A DNA stretch of 64,000 nucleotides from Bradyrhizobium lablabi (GTDB lineage Bacteria; Pseudomonadota; Alphaproteobacteria; Rhizobiales; Xanthobacteraceae), in NCBI RefSeq assembly GCF_018131005.1, contig NZ_JAFCJK010000004.1, positions 372,001 to 436,000 on the forward strand, written 5' to 3'. The translations under genes were made by a program, and so were the position numbers. Below are positions 16,505-55,419 of the stretch, piece by piece; the first letter of the stretch is position 1; each line of letters begins with the position of its first letter. The notes under the pieces were generated by a model, which searched no databases, had not been told where the DNA came from, and saw only the letters and a program-made list of their open reading frames with translations.

Positions 16505-16550
16505 CGTGTCGTGCTACGGTTGTCGATCAGGCATCACTGAGCGATCGATC

Positions 16551-17258
16551 TTGGCCAAGGCAAAACGAATTCTGAAATGGCAGCGCGACCCCGAGGGGAT
16601 GCGGCAGCGCATCCTCGATGCGGCAAAGCAGGAATTTTCCGCACACGGGCTCGCGGGCGCGCGCGTCGACCGTATCGCGGCCAAGGCCGGCGCCAACAAG
16701 CGCATGCTCTATTATCATGTCGGCAACAAGGAGGATCTCTATCTCGAGGTGCTGGAGGGCGCCTATGAGAAAATCCGAGCCGAGGAGCGTACGCTCGCTC
16801 TCGAACATCTCGATCCGCCCGAGGCGATCGCCTGCCTGATCGATTTCACCTGGAACTACTTCCTGCGCAACCCCGAGTTCCTGGCGCTGCTCAACACGGA
16901 AAACCTCGCTAAAGCAAAACACCTGAAGCGCTCGACCAAGGTCAAGTCGATGCACTCGCCCTTTGTCGAGATGATCCGCACCGTGGTGACGCGCGGTGTC
17001 GCGAGGGGCGACTTCCGCGTCGCGGTCGATCCGGTGCAGCTCTACATTTCGATCGCCGCACTCGCATTCTTCTATCTCTCCAACAGCGCCACGCTGAGCG
17101 TGATCTTCGGCCGCGACCTTCTGAAGAAGGACGCGCGCGACGAGCGCCTTGCGCACATGATCGCACTGGTGCTGGCCGCGCTGACCGGCGAATCCACAGC
17201 CGTGTTCGGCAGGGCGAAGGCGCCCGCACGGCAGTCGGCGGAACAGCCGGTGGTGTGA
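16551..17258 (+). CDS. TetR/AcrR-family transcriptional regulator
   Basis: 235 residues from TTG at 16551. The helix-turn-helix covers about residues 12-60, with ILDAAKQEFSAHGLAGARVDRIAAKAG followed by the YYHVGNKEDLY recognition region. The C-terminal domain is helical and would bind a small ligand. The frame is open back to GTG at 16506, but the predicted operator lies at 16483-16504, directly against that codon, and family N-termini normally begin a few residues before KRILKWQ, so the TTG is preferred. It precedes the ABC importer and DUF993-type pathway genes by 212 bp on the same strand and is their likely repressor (inference). Confidence 0.87.
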   Translation: MAKAKRILKWQRDPEGMRQRILDAAKQEFSAHGLAGARVDRIAAKAGANKRMLYYHVGNKEDLYLEVLEGAYEKIRAEERTLALEHLDPPEAIACLIDFTWNYFLRNPEFLALLNTENLAKAKHLKRSTKVKSMHSPFVEMIRTVVTRGVARGDFRVAVDPVQLYISIAALAFFYLSNSATLSVIFGRDLLKKDARDERLAHMIALVLAALTGESTAVFGRAKAPARQSAEQPVV

Positions 17259-17470
17259 GTTCCGGCCTGCCGCGAGCATCATTGCAAGGAGTGGCGCGGC
17301 GAAGCCACCGCGTAACCCTGCATAAAGTCTGCGGGGACAGTCGGCGGTAATTTTCATTCTGCGAAACTGCGAATTCGCGACGCGCATTTGCCGCAAGGGA
17401 GGGGCTGGACAGTATTTATCCAACGGGTTAATTTTCGCGCCGAATAGAGCAAGGTGCAAGGGAGTGGAGC
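17259..17470. other. Intergenic region before the ABC importer operon
   Basis: 212 bp that probably carries the promoter of the ABC importer and pathway genes. GGAGTGGAGC is the ribosome site of the permease. No clear palindromic operator was found. Confidence 0.35.
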
Positions 17471-18280
17471 GTGGCGGAGGCGAAGAGCCCGTCGGGTTTA
17501 TCAAAGGTGCTGAACGCGGCGTGGGTGCGGCCTTTCCTGTTTCTGGTTGTTATCGTGGCTGCATGGGACCTCGCGATCAGACTGTTCCATATTCCAGCCT
17601 ATCAGATCCCGTCGCCTGGCGATGTCGTCGCGGTGCTGAAGACCGACTGGCCGGAGCTGCTGCGGCAATCCTGGCCGACGACCTACGCGACGATCTGCGG
17701 CTTTCTGCTCTCCGCAGTGTTCGGCATTCCCGTCGCGATGCTGATTGCGGGCTCGAAGACGGTGGAGAGCTACGTCTATCCGCTGCTGGTGTTCTCGCAG
17801 TCAGTGCCGAAGATCGCGATCGCGCCGCTATTCGTGGTGTGGTTCGGATTCGGCATCATCCCGAAGGTGATTTCGGCATTCCTGCTCGGCTTCTTTCCGG
17901 TGGTCGTCTCCGCGGTGCAGGGCTTCAAGTCTGTCGATCCCGACATGGTCGATCTCGCGCGCGCAATGCAAGGCAGCCGTTTTCAGGTGTTCCGAGCGGT
18001 AAACCTGCCGCATGCGATGCCGGCGATCTTTTCCGGTCTGAAAGTGTCGGTGACGCTGGCCGTGGTCGGCGCTGTTGTCGGCGAGTTCGTCGGGTCCAAT
18101 TCCGGCATCGGCTACGTGATGCAGCGCTCGATCGGCACCTTTGACCTGCCGACGATGTTCGCCGCGCTGGTGATCCTCGCGCTGCTCGGCGTGGTTCTGT
18201 TCTGGATCGTGGACCGCATCGAGCGGCTTGTGATCCCCTGGCACGTCAGCCAGCGCGACGACATCATTTTCGCTTCGTAG
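17471..18280 (+). CDS. NMT1/TauT-type ABC transporter permease
   Basis: 269 residues with about six membrane segments, of the SsuC/TauC/nitrate-type permease family. The cytoplasmic loop that contacts the ATPase is visible as VDLARAMQGSRFQVFRAVNLPHAMP, carrying the EAA-type glycine. QSVPKIAIAPLFVVWFG is another family hallmark. It starts at GTG with GGAG upstream. With the binding protein (18452) and ATPase (19595) it forms one importer; a palindromic repeat separates it from the binding-protein gene. Confidence 0.9.
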   Translation: MAEAKSPSGLSKVLNAAWVRPFLFLVVIVAAWDLAIRLFHIPAYQIPSPGDVVAVLKTDWPELLRQSWPTTYATICGFLLSAVFGIPVAMLIAGSKTVESYVYPLLVFSQSVPKIAIAPLFVVWFGFGIIPKVISAFLLGFFPVVVSAVQGFKSVDPDMVDLARAMQGSRFQVFRAVNLPHAMPAIFSGLKVSVTLAVVGAVVGEFVGSNSGIGYVMQRSIGTFDLPTMFAALVILALLGVVLFWIVDRIERLVIPWHVSQRDDIIFAS

Positions 18281-18310
18281 GTTTATTGCGTAGAAAGAAG
18301 AAAGAGCAGC

Positions 18311-18425
18311 CGTCACTGCAAGGAGCTCGCGACAGAATTGCAAAGCAATTTGCGCTAAAGCCGACGAGGCAATCCATGTCACCATGCGTTGCGTCATGGA
18401 TTGCCTCGCTTCGCTAGCAATGACG
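18311..18425. repeat. 115 bp palindromic repeat, copy A
   Basis: Runs from CGTCACTGC to GCAATGACG and contains GAATTGCAAAGCAATT and the inverted pair AGGCAATCCATG / CATGGATTGCCT. Copy B lies at 19449-19563 in the same orientation, and a related copy in opposite orientation at 55279-55419. It sits between the permease and binding-protein genes. Confidence 0.85.
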
Positions 18426-18451
18426 AAAAACAATAACGGGAGGACTATCTG

Positions 18452-19447
18452 ATGCGATTGATCACTGCAGCTTTGGCGACACTGGCCTGGACCGCGCTCG
18501 CCGTGGCGCCGGCTTCCGCCGCGGACAAGGTCGTGCTGATGCTGAACTGGTACGTCTACGGCGAGCACGCGCCGTTCTATTACGGCAAGGCCAAGGGAAT
18601 CTATGCGGCTGAGGGTATCGACCTCGAGATCCAGGAAGGCCGCGGCTCGGCCGCCACGACGCAGGCGGTTGCGGCCAAGACCGCCGATTTCGGCTATGTC
18701 GACGTGCCCACCATGATGCGCGCTGCGGTGAAGGGCGCGCCCGTGGTCGCGACCGGCGTGCTGCTGCAGACGAGTCCGATGTCGGCGATGGGCTTTGTCG
18801 ACAAGAACATCAGGAAGCCCGAGGACATCAAGGGCAAGACGGTTGCGATCACGCCGGCTGACTCGATGACGCAGATCTGGCCGCTGTTCCTGAAGAAGAC
18901 CGGGCTGAAGGAAAGTGATTTCCACACCGTGGCCGGCGACGGCCAGACCAAGCTCAACGCCGTGATCAATGGCCAGGCCGATCTTCTCCTCGGCTACGTC
19001 ATGGACCAGTCGATGAAGATCAAGGACGCAACCGGCAAGGACGTCTATCCGATCAAGTTCGCCGATTACGGCATCAACATGGTTTCGTCAGGAATGATCG
19101 CGAATTCGGACTATGTGAAGGCTAATGCCGACCTCGTCCGCCGTTTCATGTCGGCCACGACCAAGGCGGTGGAGGCCGCCGAGAAGGACCCGAAGGCCGC
19201 GGCGCAATCGATTCTCGACGCCAACCCCAAGGGCGGCAAGATCGACACGCTGACGCAAGGCTTTGAGCTGACGATCCCGCTCTATCGCACCGCCGAGACC
19301 AAGGCCAAGCGGCCGTTCCAGGTCACCGACCAGAACATGACCGATACGGTCAACCTGATGGTCGAGTATGGCGGCCTCGATGCCAAGGCGAAGGACAATC
19401 CGAAGGCCTTCTACACCAAGGATTATCTGCCGAAGGGCGATTCATGA
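18452..19447 (+). CDS. NMT1/THI5-like ABC substrate-binding protein
   Basis: 331 residues with a signal peptide (MRLITAALATLAWTALAVAPASA, cleaved before ADK). The mature chain has the NMT1-type features: LNWYVYGEHAPFYYGKAKGIYAAEGIDLE near the N-terminus and DFGYVDVPTMMRA in the first lobe. Relatives bind pyrimidine thiamine precursors, taurine, alkanesulphonates, nitrate or aromatic acids. The aromatic pair in LNWYVYG resembles that of thiamine-precursor binders, but nearby genes point to a carbohydrate-like compound. Ligand unknown. The gene is flanked on both sides by directly repeated copies of a 115 bp element. Confidence 0.9.
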   Translation: MRLITAALATLAWTALAVAPASAADKVVLMLNWYVYGEHAPFYYGKAKGIYAAEGIDLEIQEGRGSAATTQAVAAKTADFGYVDVPTMMRAAVKGAPVVATGVLLQTSPMSAMGFVDKNIRKPEDIKGKTVAITPADSMTQIWPLFLKKTGLKESDFHTVAGDGQTKLNAVINGQADLLLGYVMDQSMKIKDATGKDVYPIKFADYGINMVSSGMIANSDYVKANADLVRRFMSATTKAVEAAEKDPKAAAQSILDANPKGGKIDTLTQGFELTIPLYRTAETKAKRPFQVTDQNMTDTVNLMVEYGGLDAKAKDNPKAFYTKDYLPKGDS

Positions 19448-19448
19448 C

Positions 19449-19563
19449 CGTCATTGCCGGGAGCTCGCGACAAAATTGCAAAGCAATTTTGCGCTGAAGC
19501 GAAGAAGCAATCCATCTGTCCACTCGCGGAAACATGGATTGCTTCGCCTCGCTCGCAATGACG
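19449..19563. repeat. 115 bp palindromic repeat, copy B
   Basis: Runs from CGTCATTGCC to GCAATGACG, with AAAATTGCAAAGCAATTTT as inner palindrome and AAGCAATCCAT / ATGGATTGCTT as outer arms. It lies in the same orientation as copy A at 18311, between the binding-protein and ATPase genes. Confidence 0.88.
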
Positions 19564-19594
19564 ACGACAGACGCGTTCAATTGGATAAGACTGT

Positions 19595-20440
19595 ATGAAA
19601 TCGGCGATGAAGACAGTTGCGGATCAACCAGGCGCACATTTGCGCCTGGTGTCGGACCGCGCAGCCGGCGCCGCGCCGGGCATAAAGCTTTCGGGCGTGT
19701 CGAAGACCTATCGTTCGCGCGACGGCGATGTGCCGTCGCTGCGGCCGCTCGACTTCACCATCAATGACGGCGAATTCTTTGTCGTGGTCGGTCCATCCGG
19801 CTGCGGCAAGTCCACGCTGCTCAAGATGATCTCGGGCCTGTTGCCGCCGACGACGGGCGAAGTCGTGGTCGATGGCGAGCCCGTCACAAAGCCGCATGGC
19901 AATGTCGGCATCGTGTTCCAGAACGCGCTGCTCCTGCCCTGGCGGAACATCCTCTCCAACGTGATGCTGCCGATCGACATGAAACAGCTGCCGCGGGACA
20001 AGTATCGAGCCCGCGCCAGGGAGCTCTTGAAGCTGGTCGGGCTCGAGGGTTTTGAGAAGAAGCTGCCCTGGCAGCTCTCCGGCGGCATGCAGCAGCGCGC
20101 CTCGATCTGCCGCGCCCTGGTGCACGATCCCAAGATCATGCTGATGGACGAGCCCTTCGGCGCGCTCGACGCGATGACGCGCGAGCGCATGAATGTCGAG
20201 CTGATGCGGATCCAGCGTGAGACCGGCAAGACGGTGCTCTTGATCACGCACTCGATTCCGGAAGCGGTGTTTCTCGCTGACCGCGTGCTCGTGATGACCG
20301 AACGGCCCGGCGCGATCGCCGCGATCTACGACGTCCCGCTGCCGCGACCGCGTTCGCTGGATTCGATGTCCGATCCCGTCTTCACCGAGCTGGTGCAGCG
20401 GATCCGGAAGCATTTCTTCACGCAGGGCACACTGGACTAG
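19595..20440 (+). CDS. NMT1/TauT-type ABC transporter ATP-binding protein
   Basis: 281 residues with all nucleotide-binding motifs: Walker A GPSGCGKST (66-74), Q-loop VFQNALLLPW, signature LSGGMQQRA, Walker B LMDEPFGALD and the switch histidine in LITHSIPEA. It is the SsuB/TauB type that energises the permease encoded upstream. About 25 extra N-terminal residues precede the usual start. The next gene begins 13 bp after the stop, tying the importer to the downstream enzymes. Confidence 0.92.
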   Translation: MKSAMKTVADQPGAHLRLVSDRAAGAAPGIKLSGVSKTYRSRDGDVPSLRPLDFTINDGEFFVVVGPSGCGKSTLLKMISGLLPPTTGEVVVDGEPVTKPHGNVGIVFQNALLLPWRNILSNVMLPIDMKQLPRDKYRARARELLKLVGLEGFEKKLPWQLSGGMQQRASICRALVHDPKIMLMDEPFGALDAMTRERMNVELMRIQRETGKTVLLITHSIPEAVFLADRVLVMTERPGAIAAIYDVPLPRPRSLDSMSDPVFTELVQRIRKHFFTQGTLD

Positions 20441-20452
20441 GCCAGACCTTCG

Positions 20453-21856
20453 ATGCCGCTTCGCCTCGCTGTTCGCGATATCGCCTTCTTCGAACGTCCG
20501 GTCGCCTTTGCCCGGCCGTTCCGCTTTGGCGCGGTCACGATCAATGCCGCAATCCAGATATTCGTGCGGGCCGAGATCGAGGTGGAGGGCAGAGGCAGCG
20601 CGATCGGAGCCAGCGCCGAAATGCTGGCGGCCAAGTGGTTCGACAAGCGGCCGCACCTGACGCCGGAAGACACGATCGAGGAGCTCCGCCGCTCGCTGAT
20701 GATCGCGCGCGAGCTCTATCTGTCGGAGAAGGACCTCGACACGGCGTTCGGCCTGCACGCGAAGTGCATTGGCGCGCAGGCGGCGGCCTGCGCCAAGGAC
20801 GACATCCCGCCGCTCGCCGCGGCCTTTGGGCCCGCGGAAATCGACAAGGCGATTCTGGATGCGCTGCTACGCGCGGTTGGAGTCGGCTTCTTCGACGGCA
20901 TGGCGCAAAATATCGCCGGCATCGACGCGCGACTGTCGCCGGATCTCGGCGACACCGAGATCGCGCGCTTTCTCGCCGATCGCAAGCGGCTGGATCGCGT
21001 TGCCGTCAGGCACACGGTCGGAATGGACGACCGGATCGATGGCGAGGGCGGCGTTGCCGATCCAAGGGAGAATGCCGGCGCGCGCTACTTCAAGCTCAAG
21101 CTGAACGGCGATCCCGCGCATGACGCGGACCGGCTGACGCGGATCGGCCAGGAGCTCGCGACGCTGCCCTATGGCTACAAGGTGACGCTCGACGCCAATG
21201 AGCAGTATGCCGATCTCTCCGCGCTGAGCGCGCTTATCGACCGGCTCGATCATGACCGCGCGCTGGCGCCGATCGCGTCCAGGCTTCTCTACTTCGAGCA
21301 GCCGATGCCGCGCGATATCACGCGCCAGACCGCGCTCGGCGGGCTGGCCGCGCGTGGTTTCATCATCGACGAAGCCGACGACTCCTACGATGCATTCCCG
21401 GCGGCACGCGCGCTGGGCTACCGCGGCATTTCGTCGAAGTCGTGCAAAGGCCTCTACAAGTCGATCGTCAACGCGGCGCGCGCGGCGAAATGGAGCGCCG
21501 ATGGAGCTGAGTATTTTGTCAGCGGCGAGGATCTGACCTGCCAGCCCGGGCTCGCGGTGCAGCAGGACCTCGCGCTTGGCGCGCTGATCGGTGTCGGCCA
21601 TGCCGAGCGCAACGGTCATCATTATGTCGACGGATTTGCCGGGACGCCGGCCGGGGAGGCCGACGCCTTCCTCGCGGCCCACTCCGATCTCTACAGGCGC
21701 GACGGCGGCACGGTCCGCCTCGCCATCCATGACGGCGATCTCCTGACGGGATCGCTGACCGCACCGGGCTTTGCCAGTTCGGTCCATCCGGATTGGTCCA
21801 GCATGCAGCCGTTGCAGCGGCCAACACCACGAGTTTTCCAGGAGCAAGCAGTATGA
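20453..21856 (+). CDS. Enolase-superfamily (muconate-lactonising-type) enzyme
   Basis: 467 residues, longer than the usual 350-400. The C-terminal barrel shows a KLK motif (Lys214/Lys216), metal ligands Asp247 (LDANEQY), Glu282 (YFEQP) and an Asp306-Glu307 pair (IIDEADD), and a lysine segment SSKSCKG (Lys329/Lys332) on the opposite face. This lysine-lysine arrangement is that of the MLE/dipeptide-epimerase subgroup, which abstracts a proton next to a carboxylate. The reaction could be epimerisation, dehydration or cycloisomerisation. The N-terminal half has an insertion relative to standard members. It overlaps the next gene by ATGA. Substrate unknown. Confidence 0.8.
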   Translation: MPLRLAVRDIAFFERPVAFARPFRFGAVTINAAIQIFVRAEIEVEGRGSAIGASAEMLAAKWFDKRPHLTPEDTIEELRRSLMIARELYLSEKDLDTAFGLHAKCIGAQAAACAKDDIPPLAAAFGPAEIDKAILDALLRAVGVGFFDGMAQNIAGIDARLSPDLGDTEIARFLADRKRLDRVAVRHTVGMDDRIDGEGGVADPRENAGARYFKLKLNGDPAHDADRLTRIGQELATLPYGYKVTLDANEQYADLSALSALIDRLDHDRALAPIASRLLYFEQPMPRDITRQTALGGLAARGFIIDEADDSYDAFPAARALGYRGISSKSCKGLYKSIVNAARAAKWSADGAEYFVSGEDLTCQPGLAVQQDLALGALIGVGHAERNGHHYVDGFAGTPAGEADAFLAAHSDLYRRDGGTVRLAIHDGDLLTGSLTAPGFASSVHPDWSSMQPLQRPTPRVFQEQAV

Positions 21857-23004
21857 CGACCAAACGCCTCGGCCTGATCATGAATGGCGTCACCGGCCGG
21901 ATGGGGCTCAACCAGCATCTGATCCGCTCGATCGTCGCGATCCGCGAACAAGGCGGGGTGCTGCTGTCGAACGGCGATCGCATCATGCCAGATCCGATCC
22001 TGGTCGGCCGCGATGCCGAGAAGGTCGCAGCGCTGGCAAAGCGCTTCGACATTACACGCTCCACCACCGACCTCGACCGGGCGCTCGCTGACAAGGGCGA
22101 CACCGTGTTCTTCGACGCCGCGACGACGCAGGCACGTCCCTCGCTGCTGACGAAGGCGATCAATGCCGGCAAGCATGTCTATTGCGAGAAGCCGATCGCG
22201 ACCAATCTGGAGGAGGCGGTCGCGGTGGTGAAGCTCGCCAACGCGAAAGGCCTCAAGCACGGCACGGTGCAGGACAAGCTGTTTTTGCCGGGCCTGAAGA
22301 AGCTCGCCTTCCTGCGCGATTCCGGCTTTTTCGGGCGCATGCTCTCGGTGCGCGGCGAGTTCGGCTATTGGGTGTTCGAGGGCGGCTGGCAGGAAGCGCA
22401 GCGGCCGTCCTGGAACTACCGCGCCGAGGACGGCGGCGGCATCATTTTGGACATGGTCTGCCACTGGCGCTACGTGCTCGACAATCTGTTCGGGGAGGTC
22501 GAGAGCGTGAGCTGCATCGGCACCACAGACATTCCCGAGCGTTATGACGAGAAGGGCAAGCCCTACAAGGCGACTGCAGACGATTCCGCATACGCGACTT
22601 TCAGGCTCAAGGGTGGCGTGATCGCCCACATCAACATGAGCTGGGTCACGCGCGTCTATCGCGACGACCTCGTCACCTTCCAGGTCGACGGCACCCATGG
22701 CTCGGCGGTCGCGGGGCTCACCGACTGCATGATCCAGGCGCGCCAGGCGACGCCGCGGCCGGTGTGGAATCCGGACGAGAAGCGGCTGCATGATTTCTAT
22801 TCCGACTGGCAGAAGCTGCCCGACAACGTCGTTTACGACAATGGCTTCAAGGAGCAGTGGGAAATGTTCATCCGCCACGTCTGCGAGGACGCGCCCTACA
22901 AATACACGCTGCTTGAAGGCGCGAAGGGCGTGCAGCTCGCTGAATGCGCGCTGAAGAGCTGGAAGGAGCGGCGCTGGATTGACGTCGCCCCGATCAACCC
23001 ATGA
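21853..23004 (+). CDS. Gfo/Idh/MocA-family oxidoreductase
   Basis: 383 residues. The N-terminal Rossmann domain (NGVTGRMG loop) and the EKP motif CEKPIATN with catalytic-type Lys113 mark the glucose-fructose oxidoreductase / inositol dehydrogenase family, which oxidises sugars or cyclitols with NAD(P). DMVCHWRYVLDNLFGEV carries the conserved histidine region of the C-terminal beta-sheet domain. The ATG at 21853 overlaps the upstream stop (ATGA). The GRMG form of the nucleotide loop is unusual for this family and recalls dihydrodipicolinate reductase. Neighbours suggest it produces a keto-sugar that the TIM-barrel and DUF993 proteins then process (inference). Confidence 0.85.
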   Translation: MTTKRLGLIMNGVTGRMGLNQHLIRSIVAIREQGGVLLSNGDRIMPDPILVGRDAEKVAALAKRFDITRSTTDLDRALADKGDTVFFDAATTQARPSLLTKAINAGKHVYCEKPIATNLEEAVAVVKLANAKGLKHGTVQDKLFLPGLKKLAFLRDSGFFGRMLSVRGEFGYWVFEGGWQEAQRPSWNYRAEDGGGIILDMVCHWRYVLDNLFGEVESVSCIGTTDIPERYDEKGKPYKATADDSAYATFRLKGGVIAHINMSWVTRVYRDDLVTFQVDGTHGSAVAGLTDCMIQARQATPRPVWNPDEKRLHDFYSDWQKLPDNVVYDNGFKEQWEMFIRHVCEDAPYKYTLLEGAKGVQLAECALKSWKERRWIDVAPINP

Positions 23005-23022
23005 GGTAGCAGGACGACAGCC

Positions 23023-24216
23023 ATGAACAAGCCAATCCTGCCGATGTCTTCTTATCAGTTGAAGCTGCCGACCGCCGATGGAGGCGTCGAGACCTATCGC
23101 CTGGCGACGTCGCGGTCCTTCCCGGCGAAACTCGAGGGCACGCTCAATCGCGTGGCGTTTTCTGCCGCGCATGTGGTGGCCGATCCGCGCGCCGACGTCG
23201 ATCCGTGGCTCGGTGCTGCGATCGACTGGGACAGGACGATCGCGTTCCGCGAACATGTCTGGGACCTCGGGCTCGGCGTCGCCGAAGCCATGGACACCGC
23301 GCAGCGCGGCATGGGGCTCGACTGGAAAACCTCGCTGGAATTGATCGAGCGCTCGGTGAAGGCCGCGAAGACGAGAGGCAATGCGTTGGTGTTCTCCGGC
23401 GCGGGGACCGATCACCTCGCGGTGGAGGACGCCAGGTCGATCGACGACGTGATCCGGGCCTATGAGGAGCAGATAGCCGCGGTCGAGAAGGCCGGAGGCC
23501 GCATCATCCTGATGGCGTCGCGGGCGCTCGCAAAGCTCGGCCGTAGCGCGGAGGATTACGCCGATGTTTACAACCGCGTATTGTCGCAGGTCCGCGAGCC
23601 CGTGATCATCCACTGGCTTGGCGACATGTTTGATCCGGCGCTGGCCGGCTATTGGGGCACCGCCGAGCTCGACGAGGCGATGGATACGGCCGTTGCGATC
23701 ATCAACGCCAATGCGGCCAAGGTCGACGGCGTGAAGGTGTCGCTGCTCGACAAGCAGCGCGAGATTGACATGCGCCGGCGGCTCGATGCGCGCGTCAGGA
23801 TGTATACCGGCGACGACTTCAACTATGCCGAACTGATCGCCGGCGACGACAAGGGATATTCGCACGCGCTGCTTGGCATCTTCGATGCGATCGCGCCGGT
23901 GGCGTCCTATGCGTTGTCGCGACTCGCCGCGGGCGACGAGGCCGGCTTCCACGACGTGCTGGGCCCGACGGTGCCGCTGTCTCGCCACATCTTCAAGGCG
24001 CCGACGCGCTTCTACAAGACCGGCATCGTCTTCATGGCCTATCTCAACGGCCACCAGGATCATTTCACGATGGTTGGTGGCCAGGAGAGCGCACGCTCGA
24101 CCCTGCATCTCGCCGAACTGTTCCGCCTCGCCGACAGGGCCGGATTGCTGGCCAATCCGGAACTCGCGACCCGTCGGATGACGACGTGGCTTGCCACGCG
24201 CGGCATTGACGCCTGA
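23023..24216 (+). CDS. DUF993 protein, dihydrodipicolinate-synthase-like
   Basis: 397 residues, about 100 longer than DapA-type aldolases. I recognise the DUF993 family, distantly related to the DapA/N-acetylneuraminate-lyase TIM barrels. VDGVKVSLLDK places Lys238 where DapA proteins carry the Schiff-base lysine. The tyrosine normally found in the LYNVP segment appears to be replaced in VIIHWLGDM, so the chemistry probably differs. No experimentally defined function is known to me. An aldol cleavage or dehydration of a keto-sugar made by the adjacent oxidoreductase is plausible. It starts 18 bp after that gene and overlaps the next by TGATG. Confidence 0.8.
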   Translation: MNKPILPMSSYQLKLPTADGGVETYRLATSRSFPAKLEGTLNRVAFSAAHVVADPRADVDPWLGAAIDWDRTIAFREHVWDLGLGVAEAMDTAQRGMGLDWKTSLELIERSVKAAKTRGNALVFSGAGTDHLAVEDARSIDDVIRAYEEQIAAVEKAGGRIILMASRALAKLGRSAEDYADVYNRVLSQVREPVIIHWLGDMFDPALAGYWGTAELDEAMDTAVAIINANAAKVDGVKVSLLDKQREIDMRRRLDARVRMYTGDDFNYAELIAGDDKGYSHALLGIFDAIAPVASYALSRLAAGDEAGFHDVLGPTVPLSRHIFKAPTRFYKTGIVFMAYLNGHQDHFTMVGGQESARSTLHLAELFRLADRAGLLANPELATRRMTTWLATRGIDA

Positions 24217-25079
24217 TGCGTGATTTCTCGAACGATCATCGCTGGCTGTCGCTGAACACTGCGACGGTCCGCAAGCAGGGCAATCTCATTGAGATCATCG
24301 AAGCCTGCGCGCGTCACGGCATCCGCGCCATCGATCCCTGGCGGGACCAGGTCGCCGCCGTCGGGCTCGAGCGCGCCGTGCGCGCGGTGCGCGACGCCGG
24401 GCTCGATCTGTCAGGCTATTGCCGCGGCGGCATGTTCACGGCAGATGGCGCGCATCGCGGCGCGGCGCGCGACGACAACCGCCGCGCGGTGGATGAAGCG
24501 AGCGCGCTCGGGGCACCCTGCATCGTGCTCGTGGTCGGCGGCCTGCCACAATATTCGCGGCCGGGCAGCGCGGCGTCGAAGAATATCGCAGCGGCGCGCA
24601 GCCAGGTGCACGACGGCATCGCCGAGATGCTGGACTATGCGAAACAAGCCAAGCTGCCGCTCGCGATCGAGCCGCTGCATCCGGCCTATGCCGCCGACCG
24701 CGCCTGTGTGAACACGACGAGGCAGGCGCTCGACATCTGCGACGCGCTCGACCCCGCCGGCACCGGCGCGCTCGGCGTCGCGCTCGACGTCTATCACATC
24801 TGGTGGGATCCGGAGCTGCTGGGCCAAATTTCGCGCGCCGGAAGCAGACGCCTGCTTGCGTTCCATGTCTGCGACTGGCTGGTGCCGACCAAGGATATCC
24901 TCAACGACCGCGGCATGATGGGCGATGGCGTGATCGATATCAGGTCGATCCGCTCGGCCGTCGAGGCAGAGGGTTTTGCCGGCTATTCGGAGATCGAGAT
25001 CTTTTCGAATGACTGGTGGGGCAGGCCAATGGATGCGGTCCTGCAGACCTGCATCGAACGGCACCGGACGATTGTTTGA
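24216..25079 (+). CDS. Sugar phosphate isomerase/epimerase-type TIM-barrel protein
   Basis: 287 residues of the xylose-isomerase-like (AP_endonuc_2) fold. The metal site Glu-Asp-His-Glu is visible: Glu152 in IEPLHP, Asp191 in ALDVYH, His217 in FHVCDW and Glu259 or Glu261 in SEIEIF. Members include inosose dehydratase and isomerase, tagatose epimerases and 3-keto-glycoside lyases, often beside Gfo/Idh/MocA dehydrogenases as here. It is the last gene of the run, overlapping the DUF993 stop by TGATG, and 54 bp from the convergent channel gene. Confidence 0.87.
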   Translation: MRDFSNDHRWLSLNTATVRKQGNLIEIIEACARHGIRAIDPWRDQVAAVGLERAVRAVRDAGLDLSGYCRGGMFTADGAHRGAARDDNRRAVDEASALGAPCIVLVVGGLPQYSRPGSAASKNIAAARSQVHDGIAEMLDYAKQAKLPLAIEPLHPAYAADRACVNTTRQALDICDALDPAGTGALGVALDVYHIWWDPELLGQISRAGSRRLLAFHVCDWLVPTKDILNDRGMMGDGVIDIRSIRSAVEAEGFAGYSEIEIFSNDWWGRPMDAVLQTCIERHRTIV

Positions 25080-28674: not shown

Positions 28675-28884
28675 GCCGGATGCCCAAGCCTGATTAGTTT
28701 CATCTGCAACTATCGTAAGCCCAGGGCCGCCGGCGCGCAACCCAATTCGCCGCGCGCGCCGAGGACGCGTATCGCAAGCCTGCGCTGGGAGAAAATCGCA
28801 GAGCCATATGCGGTTTTGCGCTTTGATGAAGGGCGCCGGCCCATCTACATTCCGCCAAAGACATTCTGCTGATTGGAAACGCCA
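28675..28884. other. Divergent promoter region, P450 / ThDP enzyme
   Basis: 210 bp between two divergent starts. It should hold both promoters. I could not identify a clear operator or -35/-10 pair. Confidence 0.35.
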
Positions 28885-29418
28885 ATGCACGCCCGCGTCG
28901 AGACTGCGGCCTCCTGGCCCGAGGAGATCTTTGCCATATTGCAGCGCTTCGAGGTGTGCCAGGTGCCCTACGTACCTGACGCCGGACATTCGCAATTGAT
29001 CGAGAGCGTGCTGAGTTCCTCGACCATGCGCGGAATCGCGCTGACGACTGAGGAAGAGGGCGTGGCGTTGCTTGCGGGCGCCTGGGCCGGTGGCCAGCGT
29101 GGCGTGCTGCTGATGCAGTCGAGCGGGGTCGGCAACTGTATCAACATGCTGTCGCTCACGCAGATATTCCGCTTCCCGTTCCTCACGCTGGTCACGATGC
29201 GCGGCGAATGGGGCGAGTTCAATCCATGGCAAGTGCCGATGGGATCGAGCACCCAGGCGGTGTTCGAACTGGCCGGTGTCAAGGTGCTGCGCGCCTCGCG
29301 CCCGGACGAGGTGCGTGAGGTTGTCGAGGCCGGCGCCTCGCAGGCCTACAATGCCTGCACGCCAACTGCCGTGTTGTTGTCGCAGCGTCTGATCGGGGCA
29401 AAGGTCTTCACCAAATGA
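28885..29418 (+). CDS. Thiamine-diphosphate decarboxylase alpha-type subunit (Pyr domain)
   Basis: 177 residues corresponding to the N-terminal pyrimidine-binding domain of ThDP enzymes. TTEEEGVALLAGAWAGG contains the conserved glutamate that activates the cofactor, followed by MQSSGVGNCINML. Separate small alpha and beta chains are known in sulphopyruvate decarboxylase (ComD/ComE) and relatives. It overlaps the beta-type gene by ATGA, as expected for subunits made in equal amounts. The ATG at 28885 is preferred to TTG at 28873. No sulphonate or phosphonate genes are nearby, so the keto-acid substrate is undetermined. Confidence 0.82.
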   Translation: MHARVETAASWPEEIFAILQRFEVCQVPYVPDAGHSQLIESVLSSSTMRGIALTTEEEGVALLAGAWAGGQRGVLLMQSSGVGNCINMLSLTQIFRFPFLTLVTMRGEWGEFNPWQVPMGSSTQAVFELAGVKVLRASRPDEVREVVEAGASQAYNACTPTAVLLSQRLIGAKVFTK

Positions 29419-30005
29419 GCAAAGCCAATCTCCTCGACCGCCGCGCCGTCGTTTCGCGACTGCTCAAGGACAGAAAGGGCGCCATCGCCGTCGGCGGTCT
29501 CGGCGCCTCGACCTACGACATCGCGGCCGCCGGCGATCACGATCGCAACTTCTACCTGTGGGGCGGCATGGGCGGCGCCGTGATGATCGGCCTTGGGCTC
29601 GCGCTGGCGCAGCCGACCCTCCCGGTGGTCGTGATTACCGGCGACGGCGAGATGCTCATGGGCATGGGCAGCCTCGCCACCGTCGGCCTGCAGAAGCCGG
29701 CCAATCTCTCGATCATTGTCCTGGACAATGAGGCTTATGGCGAGACCGGGGGCCAGGTCAGCCATACTGCCGCTTCCGCCGACCTTGTCGGCGTCGCCAA
29801 GGCGTGTGGGGTCCTGGACTCCAGGGCGATCTCGACCATGTCGGAGGTTGAGGCTTTTGCCGCGTCTTTACATGACGTTAGAGGTGGGCCGCGGTTCGCG
29901 AACGTCAAGATCGACGGCGCCAATCTGGAACGGGTGCTGTCCAGCCGAGACGGCGCCTATATCGTCAACCGCATCCGCGGGTCGTTAGGACACACCCCGA
30001 TCTAA
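29415..30005 (+). CDS. Thiamine-diphosphate decarboxylase beta-type subunit (PP domain)
   Basis: 196 residues, the pyrophosphate-binding half of a ThDP enzyme. The GDG...N cofactor motif is complete: GDGEMLMGMGSLATVG through to LDNEAYGET, which binds magnesium and the diphosphate. WGGMGGAVMIGLGLALA precedes it as in sulphopyruvate and phosphonopyruvate decarboxylases. It would form a heteromeric enzyme with the alpha-type chain encoded immediately upstream. The next gene, tetR, starts after 65 bp with its own promoter. Confidence 0.85.
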   Translation: MSKANLLDRRAVVSRLLKDRKGAIAVGGLGASTYDIAAAGDHDRNFYLWGGMGGAVMIGLGLALAQPTLPVVVITGDGEMLMGMGSLATVGLQKPANLSIIVLDNEAYGETGGQVSHTAASADLVGVAKACGVLDSRAISTMSEVEAFAASLHDVRGGPRFANVKIDGANLERVLSSRDGAYIVNRIRGSLGHTPI

Positions 30006-55278: not shown

Positions 55279-55419
55279 CGTCATTGCGAGCCACAGGGTC
55301 GCGTGAATGCGCGCCCGACGACAGGCTCCGCGAAACAATCCTCGTATGAGGCGTGGATTGCTTCGTCGCTTCAGCGCAAAATTGCTTTGCAATTTTGTCA
55401 CGAGCTTCTCGCAATGACG
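55279..55419. repeat. 141 bp palindromic repeat, inverted copy C
   Basis: Runs from CGTCATTGCGAG to CTCGCAATGACG. It contains AAAATTGCTTTGCAATTTT and the GTGGATTGCTTCG segment, the reverse complement of parts of copies A (18311) and B (19449), with a longer centre. It occupies most of the gap before the P450-reductase gene. Confidence 0.85.

Follow-up and report, generated by a model that had tools for sequence, protein, structure and literature searches.

Members of the DHDPS/NAL superfamily, such as DapA, KDG aldolase and L-KDA dehydratase, have a barrel fold, a lysine on strand 6 and C-terminal helices. A DUF993 protein with these same features is encoded in the window analyzed here, a 64,000-nucleotide stretch of Bradyrhizobium lablabi (NZ_JAFCJK010000004.1, positions 372,001 to 436,000), as part of a probable operon with importer genes and three further enzymes. 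It differs from the described members in being about 100 residues longer, with 13% identity to the DHDPS structure 3ler, and in having His for the usual Tyr and DT(A/S)(Q/H)R for the GTTGE motif. The source genome (7.3 Mb) has a single DUF993 gene. A solved protein of the same family, SMc04132 of Sinorhizobium meliloti 1021 (4dnh), is titled hypothetical protein, with no function attached to the entry.

The neighboring enzymes also resemble parts of known systems. Gfo/Idh/MocA dehydrogenases (Gfo) are paired with EDHE-type TIM barrel enzymes (EDHE) in the breakdown of inositol, rhizopine and levoglucosan, and the operon is like myo-inositol (iol) and rhizopine (moc) catabolism in having both. 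Its Gfo misses the IolG cut-off, and DUF993 is not known to take part in the iol or moc pathways. The muconate-lactonizing enzyme (MLE) subgroup of the enolase superfamily is marked by a KxK on strand 2, D/E/D metal ligands and a lysine on strand 6. The enolase-superfamily enzyme of the operon (ENO) is alike in fold and in this pattern, but is about 100 residues longer, has no Pfam match at 1e-3 and is at most 20% identical to the 50 listed structure matches. Oxidative deoxyribonate pathways share a CoA-transferase and a glycerate kinase with other, CoA-type and LacI-linked, DUF993 clusters; the main text of their description (PMC6365646) never mentions 'dihydrodipicolinate', 'DUF' or 'acyl-CoA dehydrogenase'. 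The PDB relatives 4dnh, 3oqb, 3ju2, 3qc0 and 7vpf carry general names (uncharacterized protein, oxidoreductase, sugar isomerase). Literature searches for DUF993, PF06187, these PDB codes and the gene set found no relevant paper, and the operon is uncharacterized in the literature searched.

We put at about one in two the probability that these genes form a single TetR-controlled operon that takes up a small carbohydrate, most likely a sugar acid or a carboxylate derived from a sugar, and degrades it by a non-phosphorylative route, with C–C cleavage placed ahead of dehydration. The gene set, the predicted fold, the invariant residues, the co-occurrence and the shared predicted operator of the TetR forms are read from sequence. 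The features are as follows.

16506..17258, + strand: TetR-family regulator (TetR_N and TetR_C_29); the first listed start, GTG 16506, is a candidate only; same gene in many partner loci
17416..17431, + strand: predicted operator palindrome TTATCCAACGGGTTAA in the TetR–permease gap, ending 39 bp before the permease start
17471..18280, + strand: ATP-binding cassette (ABC) permease (BPD_transp_1); nearest NCBIfam names SaoP, TauC and SsuC, all below cut-off
18452..19447, + strand: NMT1-type periplasmic solute-binding protein (SBP; Pfam NMT1 3.5e-45)
19595..20440, + strand: ABC importer ATPase (Pfam ABC_tran)
20453..21856, + strand: ENO, like the muconate-lactonizing subgroup (K214xK216, D247, E282, D306, K329)
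21853..23004, + strand: Gfo (three GFO_IDH_MocA domains; E112-K113-P114; D200 and H204 invariant)
23023..24216, + strand: DUF993, DHDPS-fold enzyme, probable Schiff-base lyase (Pfam DUF993 9.7e-189; solved relative 4dnh)
23293..23307, + strand: codons of D91-T92-A93-Q94-R95, at the position of the DHDPS GTTGE substrate motif
23611..23613, + strand: codon of H197, at the position of the catalytic tyrosine
23734..23736, + strand: codon of K238, predicted Schiff-base lysine on barrel strand 6
24216..25079, + strand: EDHE, xylose-isomerase-like TIM barrel (AP_endonuc_2 1.5e-36; putative metal ligands E152, D191, H217, E259)

Open frames, with Pfam matches for all but ENO, confirm the seven same-strand genes behind a TetR gene that the preliminary description had reported, and also its three junctions: ENO and Gfo overlap in ATGA, an 18-bp gap separates Gfo from DUF993, and DUF993 and EDHE meet in TGATG. 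ENO begins 12 bp after the ATPase gene. The longest version of the Gfo frame starts at TTG 21793, and ATG 21853 yields the ATGA overlap.

Recurrence of the gene set

A survey of the class found DUF993 in 35 of 385 genomes drawn (24 of 276 genera), and 35 loci were fetched from 34 genomes. In 25 of these loci DUF993 is directly preceded by this Gfo, 29 have this EDHE no more than 5 kb away, and 15 contain ENO; the strand is the same in every case. All loci collected number 138, a set that is biased towards the window's kin and includes some loci truncated by contig ends; duplicates L121 (of L048) and L126 (of L049) were left out of the 138-locus counts, the residue alignments and the operator scans. 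This Gfo is present in 111 of the 138, and 83 of these lie outside the Bradyrhizobium group. Within 9.5 kb, the 83 Gfo-type loci have EDHE in 78 cases, TetR in 60, ENO in 45, the NMT1 set on either strand in 28 and a TctA permease in 19. The genes are tightly spaced, with median gaps between tblastn ends of 30 bp for Gfo–DUF993 (111 pairs) and 12 bp for DUF993–EDHE (95 pairs). Among the named loci, which comprise the top 80 out of at least 591 matches and so favor the window's kin, the closest DUF993 matches are from Bradyrhizobium (identity up to 93%). The Gfo–DUF993–EDHE block also recurs outside the genus, with examples from named alpha-, beta- and gammaproteobacteria as well as from plasmids, some of them actinobacterial. 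By comparison, the source genome has 9 DHDPS-family, 10 Gfo and 7 EDHE matches, and no DHDPS-family match comes within 5 kb of any of the others. Because the block recurs outside the genus while the other DHDPS-family genes of the genome adjoin no Gfo or EDHE, the grouping is beyond chance.

A survey of the phylum narrowed the gene-set claim. DUF993 was found in 36 of 398 genomes, and 24 new loci outside the genus were analyzed (one of 25 loci, L258, was dropped as a duplicate of L085; class genome G028 and 10 genus genomes were left out). Several counts weigh against the proposed pathway. This Gfo is present in 6 of the 24 loci and this EDHE in 7, with another Gfo-family gene in 7 more. Eight of the 24 instead combine a LacI regulator with aldehyde dehydrogenase (ALDH), crotonase and CoA-transferase genes, seven of them with another Gfo-family gene as well, and six carry a set of GMC, short-chain dehydrogenase/reductase (SDR) and GMC genes. 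Glycerate kinase was found in 9 of the 138 collected and 5 of the 24 new loci. Among Gfo-type loci it is rare, with just 2 of the 83 outside the Bradyrhizobium group having it nearby, and 0 of the 6 new ones. ENO is missing in 20 of the 35 class loci, and the family of L043, L046, L049 and L057 has DUF993 without Gfo or EDHE.

The Gfo–DUF993–EDHE block thus characterizes the TetR clusters rather than DUF993 genes at large, and is one of several DUF993 settings. The preliminary description named DUF993 homologues lying mostly away from these families as a refuting condition; the outcome is mixed, as most class loci have Gfo and EDHE and most phylum loci outside the genus lack them. In its four-step pathway, the ENO step is optional. 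The odds of the sugar-acid pathway are unchanged, because the phylum survey weakens the co-occurrence but adds glycerate- and CoA-linked settings.

These other settings are themselves distinctive. A plasmid lineage in S. meliloti, Ensifer, Paracoccus, Sagittula and Rhizobium, with DUF993 54 to 59% identical to the window's protein, has varying SDR, acyl-CoA dehydrogenase, CoA-transferase, crotonase, aldo-keto reductase, electron-transfer flavoprotein and glycerate kinase genes instead of Gfo. Its acyl-CoA dehydrogenase is nearest to acryloyl-CoA reductase, below cut-off. The tree covered six of the seven CoA-type rows, all but L152, and these fall on one side of a branch with support of 87. 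A further group, which is free of the operator described below (L257, L260, L263–L268, L272–L275, L277, L278), comprises the ALDH–crotonase–CoA-transferase loci with LacI, mostly with a Gfo-family gene, and the GMC–SDR–GMC loci with a sugar ABC importer, some of them with LacI and glycerate kinase. A link between DUF993 and box benzoate genes in L043, L046, L049 and L057 was rejected, as its neighbors in these loci have no kinship with one another; the box names were given by eye.

In S. meliloti, a table in PMC12542648 gives SMc04132, SMc04133, SMc04135, SMc04138 and SMc04139 the same number, 6, which seems to be a co-expression module of that proteome study; its text describes modules 4 to 6 as enriched in proteins lowered upon PhaR loss. 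Gene order suggests that SMc04133 to SMc04139 include the matching Gfo, the importer and extra Gfo genes. SMc04134, which is probably the TetR protein of this cluster, is named as a transcription factor in PMC11387232.

A predicted operator of the TetR forms

The palindrome TTATCCAACGGGTTAA at 17416–17431 is the sole site in the window with at most one mismatch to TTAACC-N4-GGTTAA. Across loci, the consensus is NTMACY-N4-RGTKAN. The letter classes were set after viewing sites in the same loci, so that the scans of the collected loci given next are not blind, whereas the test on the phylum loci is. The 28 Bradyrhizobium-group loci were left out of the perfect-palindrome, one-mismatch and unsymmetric scans, and the 9 loci behind the weight matrix were also left out of the perfect-palindrome and unsymmetric scans. 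Across 101 loci there were 23 perfect palindromes of the form [GTA]T[AC]AC[CT]-N4, each no more than 330 bp ahead of a recognized cluster gene; the reversed letters gave 1 and 0. When perfect symmetry was not demanded, 45 of 54 TetR loci had a promoter site and 77 of 80 sites fell in promoter stretches, which account for 14% of the sequence, while all 23 sites of the 47 loci without TetR lay in promoters; 30 shuffled-arm controls gave a mean of 1.4 loci and a highest value of 29. With one mismatch allowed, 111 of 150 sites were in promoters and 57 of 62 TetR loci had one, against 4 to 28 loci for six shuffled arms.

The blind test applied the fixed motif to the 24 unseen loci. Ten of 12 sites, in 7 loci, fell in cluster promoters (10.4% of the sequence), and 6 of the 7 TetR loci had a promoter site. 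Shuffled arms gave a mean of 0.2 promoter sites and reversed letters 0, and the LacI-linked loci without TetR had zero promoter sites. In 21 whole class genomes, 22 of 25 distinct GTAACY-N4-RGTTAC sites lie in DUF993 neighborhoods, and 15 of the 21 genomes have any. Of the other three, one precedes a TetR relative about 16 kb from the DUF993 gene (L251) and two have no recognized link (L252, L253). As a control, the pattern with its letters reversed occurred 13 times, in 6 of these genomes.

The arms covary by lineage (GTAACC..GGTTAC, GTAACT..AGTTAC, TTCACC..GGTGAA), as expected of a bound palindrome. The site precedes whichever gene is first, be it the permease, Gfo, TctC, a second DHDPS gene or a dioxygenase. 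In NGR234, which has a divergent carbohydrate ABC importer and two further Gfo genes, it stands directly upstream of that importer's SBP gene. The CoA-type loci L148, L151, L154, L158 and L180 have it in their promoters without an adjacent TetR gene, and L062 and L152 are without it. By sequence, the predicted operator marks the TetR forms, including CoA-type clusters without Gfo, and not the LacI forms.

One candidate for a second regulon member was set aside. The only other exact TTAWCC-N4-GGTTAA in the genome (G000:C11:61427-61442; L181, L183) lies 26 bp ahead of the gene for a carbohydrate-type SBP that is accompanied by two permeases, and is exact in 11 of 25 orthologous genus promoters. 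Overlapping it is a second palindrome, which has 6 of 6 pairs in L223 and L234, where the first site is broken, and also in L211, and elsewhere keeps 4 or 5 of 6 pairs. We lean to a site of another regulator and do not use it as evidence.

Active site of DUF993 and the proposed pathway

The DUF993 model (PF06187) matches the window's protein over its whole length (627.6 bits versus a cut-off of 24). The predicted structure (pLDDT 85.6) was compared by VIA-align, and the results refer to the folds listed there. It matches 4dnh with Z 51.5 over 383 residues (62% identity) and DHDPS 3ler with Z 28.8 over 287 residues. When its profile was compared with that of 8 DHDPS-family proteins from the source genome, the match probability was 93% in local and 87% in global mode. 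The profile alignment places K238 at the Schiff-base lysine, H197 at the catalytic tyrosine and D91-T92-A93-Q94-R95 at GTTGE, and the strands of the model agree (strand 5, 194–198; strand 6, 234–239). K238, H197, W198, D264 and K332 are invariant in all 139 aligned rows, including actinobacterial ones, and in all 24 new loci, so that the lysine is kept and His replaces Tyr in 163 of 163 sequences. R95, D91 and T92 are present in 139 of 139 rows and 23 of 23 new loci (one gap), and the motif across DUF993 is DT(A/S)(Q/H)R. The modified aldolase of the preliminary description is supported in its fold, in Lys238 kept at the Schiff-base position and in the changed tyrosine.

Neither hallmark of the aldolase branch is present. 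The catalytic tyrosine is lost in DUF993, and in the genome's 8 DHDPS-family proteins the same position is Y in 4 and H, F, Q and Q in the rest. The GXXGE motif has R95 for Glu, whereas Glu is kept in 8 of the 8. According to a review (PMC9795676), the lysine forms the Schiff base, and the tyrosine and the GXXG motif serve aldol cleavage. The DUF993 residues suggest Schiff-base chemistry compatible with either cleavage or dehydration.

A second DHDPS-family protein (c7) and an epimerase-like protein (c8) adjoin the module in 16 and 13 of the 83 Gfo-type loci outside the Bradyrhizobium group, for example in L052, L033 and L037. One example of each was scanned and had no NCBIfam name at 1e-8. 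The proposal that c7 is a close DUF993 relative was rejected (profile match probability 1.8%, versus 98.6% between c7 and DHDPS).

The partner enzymes are assigned with differing ease. The Gfo is above cut-off for three Pfam models, has E112, K113, P114, D200 and H204 in 112 of 112 rows, and has 3oqb as a solved relative. Its nearest NCBIfam names are IolG and levoglucosan dehydrogenase, and it misses both equivalog cut-offs. The EDHE scores 126.9 bits for AP_endonuc_2 (cut-off 31.1), with E152, D191 and E259 in 119 of 119 rows and H217 in 116 of 119. Its solved relatives are 3ju2, 3qc0 and 7vpf, and its best PDB match with a characterized name is IolI (1i60). ENO is assigned to the enolases, in place of a Pfam match, by its structure model, a two-domain enolase fold (Z 30.0 over 350 residues to 1wuf, with many MLE-subgroup rows), and by weak matches, 7e-5 at best, between its own profile and chains such as muconate cycloisomerases and dipeptide epimerases. 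K214 and K216 (KxK, strand 2), D247, E282, D306 and K329 are each kept in 72 of 72 rows.

These observations suggest a substrate class, an order of steps, C–C cleavage and an effector. The TetR protein, bound to the 17416–17431 palindrome, would repress the importer and enzyme genes as long as neither the substrate nor an intermediate is present. ENO would act adjacent to a carboxylate, by epimerization, dehydration or lactone opening, and the Gfo would oxidize a hydroxyl to a ketone with NAD(P). K238 of DUF993 would form a Schiff base with this ketone and break the bond beta to it, with retro-aldol cleavage as the first choice and loss of water as the second. The EDHE would then isomerize or epimerize the keto product with a divalent metal. 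The likeliest fragment would be a C3 acid, namely glycerate formed by way of tartronate semialdehyde or hydroxypyruvate, because a glycerate 2-kinase is in the cluster of some relatives.

The best-surviving alternative keeps this pathway and makes DUF993 a Schiff-base dehydratase that removes water from the Gfo-made keto acid, with C–C cleavage left to another enzyme, such as an HpcH/HpaI-type aldolase. His for the proton-shuttling Tyr and DT(A/S)(Q/H)R for GTTGE point this way. In the same review (PMC9795676), the Azospirillum L-KDA dehydratase, a DHDPS relative in which Gln takes the place of Tyr and the motif has been replaced, performs dehydration only. Because these like changes accompany the loss of aldol cleavage there, they favor dehydration over our preferred reaction. 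An HpaI/GarL-like aldolase (c21) is also found in 4 of the 83 Gfo-type loci outside the Bradyrhizobium group. However, two small clusters have a glycerate kinase and, in the annotation listed, which for plasmids is incomplete, no other obvious C–C lyase alongside: L147 (Gfo, DUF993, EDHE, glycerate kinase, TetR) and L150 (Gfo, EDHE, MFS, DUF993, glycerate kinase, TetR); in L150 a fumarylacetoacetate-hydrolase-family gene lies about 8 kb off. Because of these two clusters, and because glycerate kinase or CoA-transferase with crotonase recurs in other DUF993 settings, we prefer C–C cleavage and regard the dehydratase as the less likely role, although a serious one.

A bolder form of the cleavage proposal is rather doubtful. 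DUF993 may be a new kind of Schiff-base lyase that uses His197 and Arg95, not a pyruvate-type motif and Tyr relay, and that defines undescribed pathways: a free-acid Gfo form and a CoA form (SDR, acyl-CoA dehydrogenase, CoA-transferase), both under one TetR operator code, together with LacI-linked forms. As a concrete version, a retro-aldol reaction of a 5-keto-hexonate may give dihydroxyacetone and tartronate semialdehyde, the latter leaving as glycerate.

Breakdown of a glycoside or cyclitol is unlikely. Here the Gfo would make a 3-keto-glycoside or inosose, the EDHE would eliminate or isomerize, and DUF993 would act on the released keto-sugar. The known Gfo/EDHE pairs, the names nearest to the Gfo and EDHE, and the NGR234 carbohydrate ABC importer with two more Gfo genes under the same operator are consistent with it. 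The named families score far too low (IolG reaches 69.6 bits where 355 are required, and levoglucosan dehydrogenase 54.1 where 650 are), and many relatives have tricarboxylate-type importers (TctA/TctC), which argues against it. We counted the tripartite-tricarboxylate importers of relatives, together with the carbohydrate ABC importer under the same operator, for a sugar-acid substrate.

The importers bear on the substrate in another way. Gfo-type clusters use four kinds (NMT1, tripartite tricarboxylate, MFS and carbohydrate ABC), whereas their recurrent elements are Gfo, DUF993, EDHE and the operator. Therefore the enzymes, and not the importer, would indicate the substrate class, a carbohydrate or its acid. 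The earlier proposal that the NMT1 importer marks a nitrogen-, sulfur- or aromatic-bearing glycoside draws on nearest importer names from sulfonate, taurine and nitrate systems, all below cut-off, and on single neighborhoods with an amidase (L151, L156) or a gene named ring-cleaving dioxygenase (L146), but is very improbable given the varied importers and the recurrent neighbor clusters inspected, in which no sulfur, nitrogen or aromatic gene was prominent, no dedicated search having been made.

Extent of the operon and significance

The flanking genes that were tested (glyoxalase-like protein, sugar kinase, ion channel, aminotransferase, P450 and thiamine pyrophosphate (TPP) enzyme) are confined to the Bradyrhizobium group, save for two weak matches (L053, L173), and we therefore take the unit to run from TetR to EDHE. 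Those 3' of the operon vary in distance among Bradyrhizobium-group loci, and a link of DUF993 with the downstream P450 and TPP genes was rejected on these grounds. The two-subunit TPP enzyme at 28873–30005, behind the P450 and a class-III aminotransferase, looks by eye like a sulfopyruvate/phosphonopyruvate decarboxylase and was seen in the Bradyrhizobium group; Pfam TPP_enzyme_C matches in its second frame only. Within the operon, the wider gaps (permease–SBP, 171 bp; SBP–ATPase, 147 bp) each hold one copy of a dispersed repeat. These copies, at 18321–18351 and 19459–19489, flank the SBP gene, and a third lies at 55379–55409 on the - strand. The repeat has 25 copies genome-wide with at most 2 mismatches, versus 0 for a reversed control. 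As to separate transcripts for importer and enzymes, the sequence scans gave a single operator-like site, the one ahead of the permease; a sigma-70 scan had zero matches anywhere and is hence uninformative.

The gene unit is real and conserved. Its proteins come from known superfamilies, but one active site is clearly altered, and a predicted regulatory site has been newly identified. If the chemistry of DUF993 differs from that of DapA and KDG aldolase, the enzyme would be a new tool for C–C bond chemistry. The shared operator would offer a simple assay, in that a compound that releases the TetR protein would be a substrate or intermediate of this operon and perhaps of other TetR forms.

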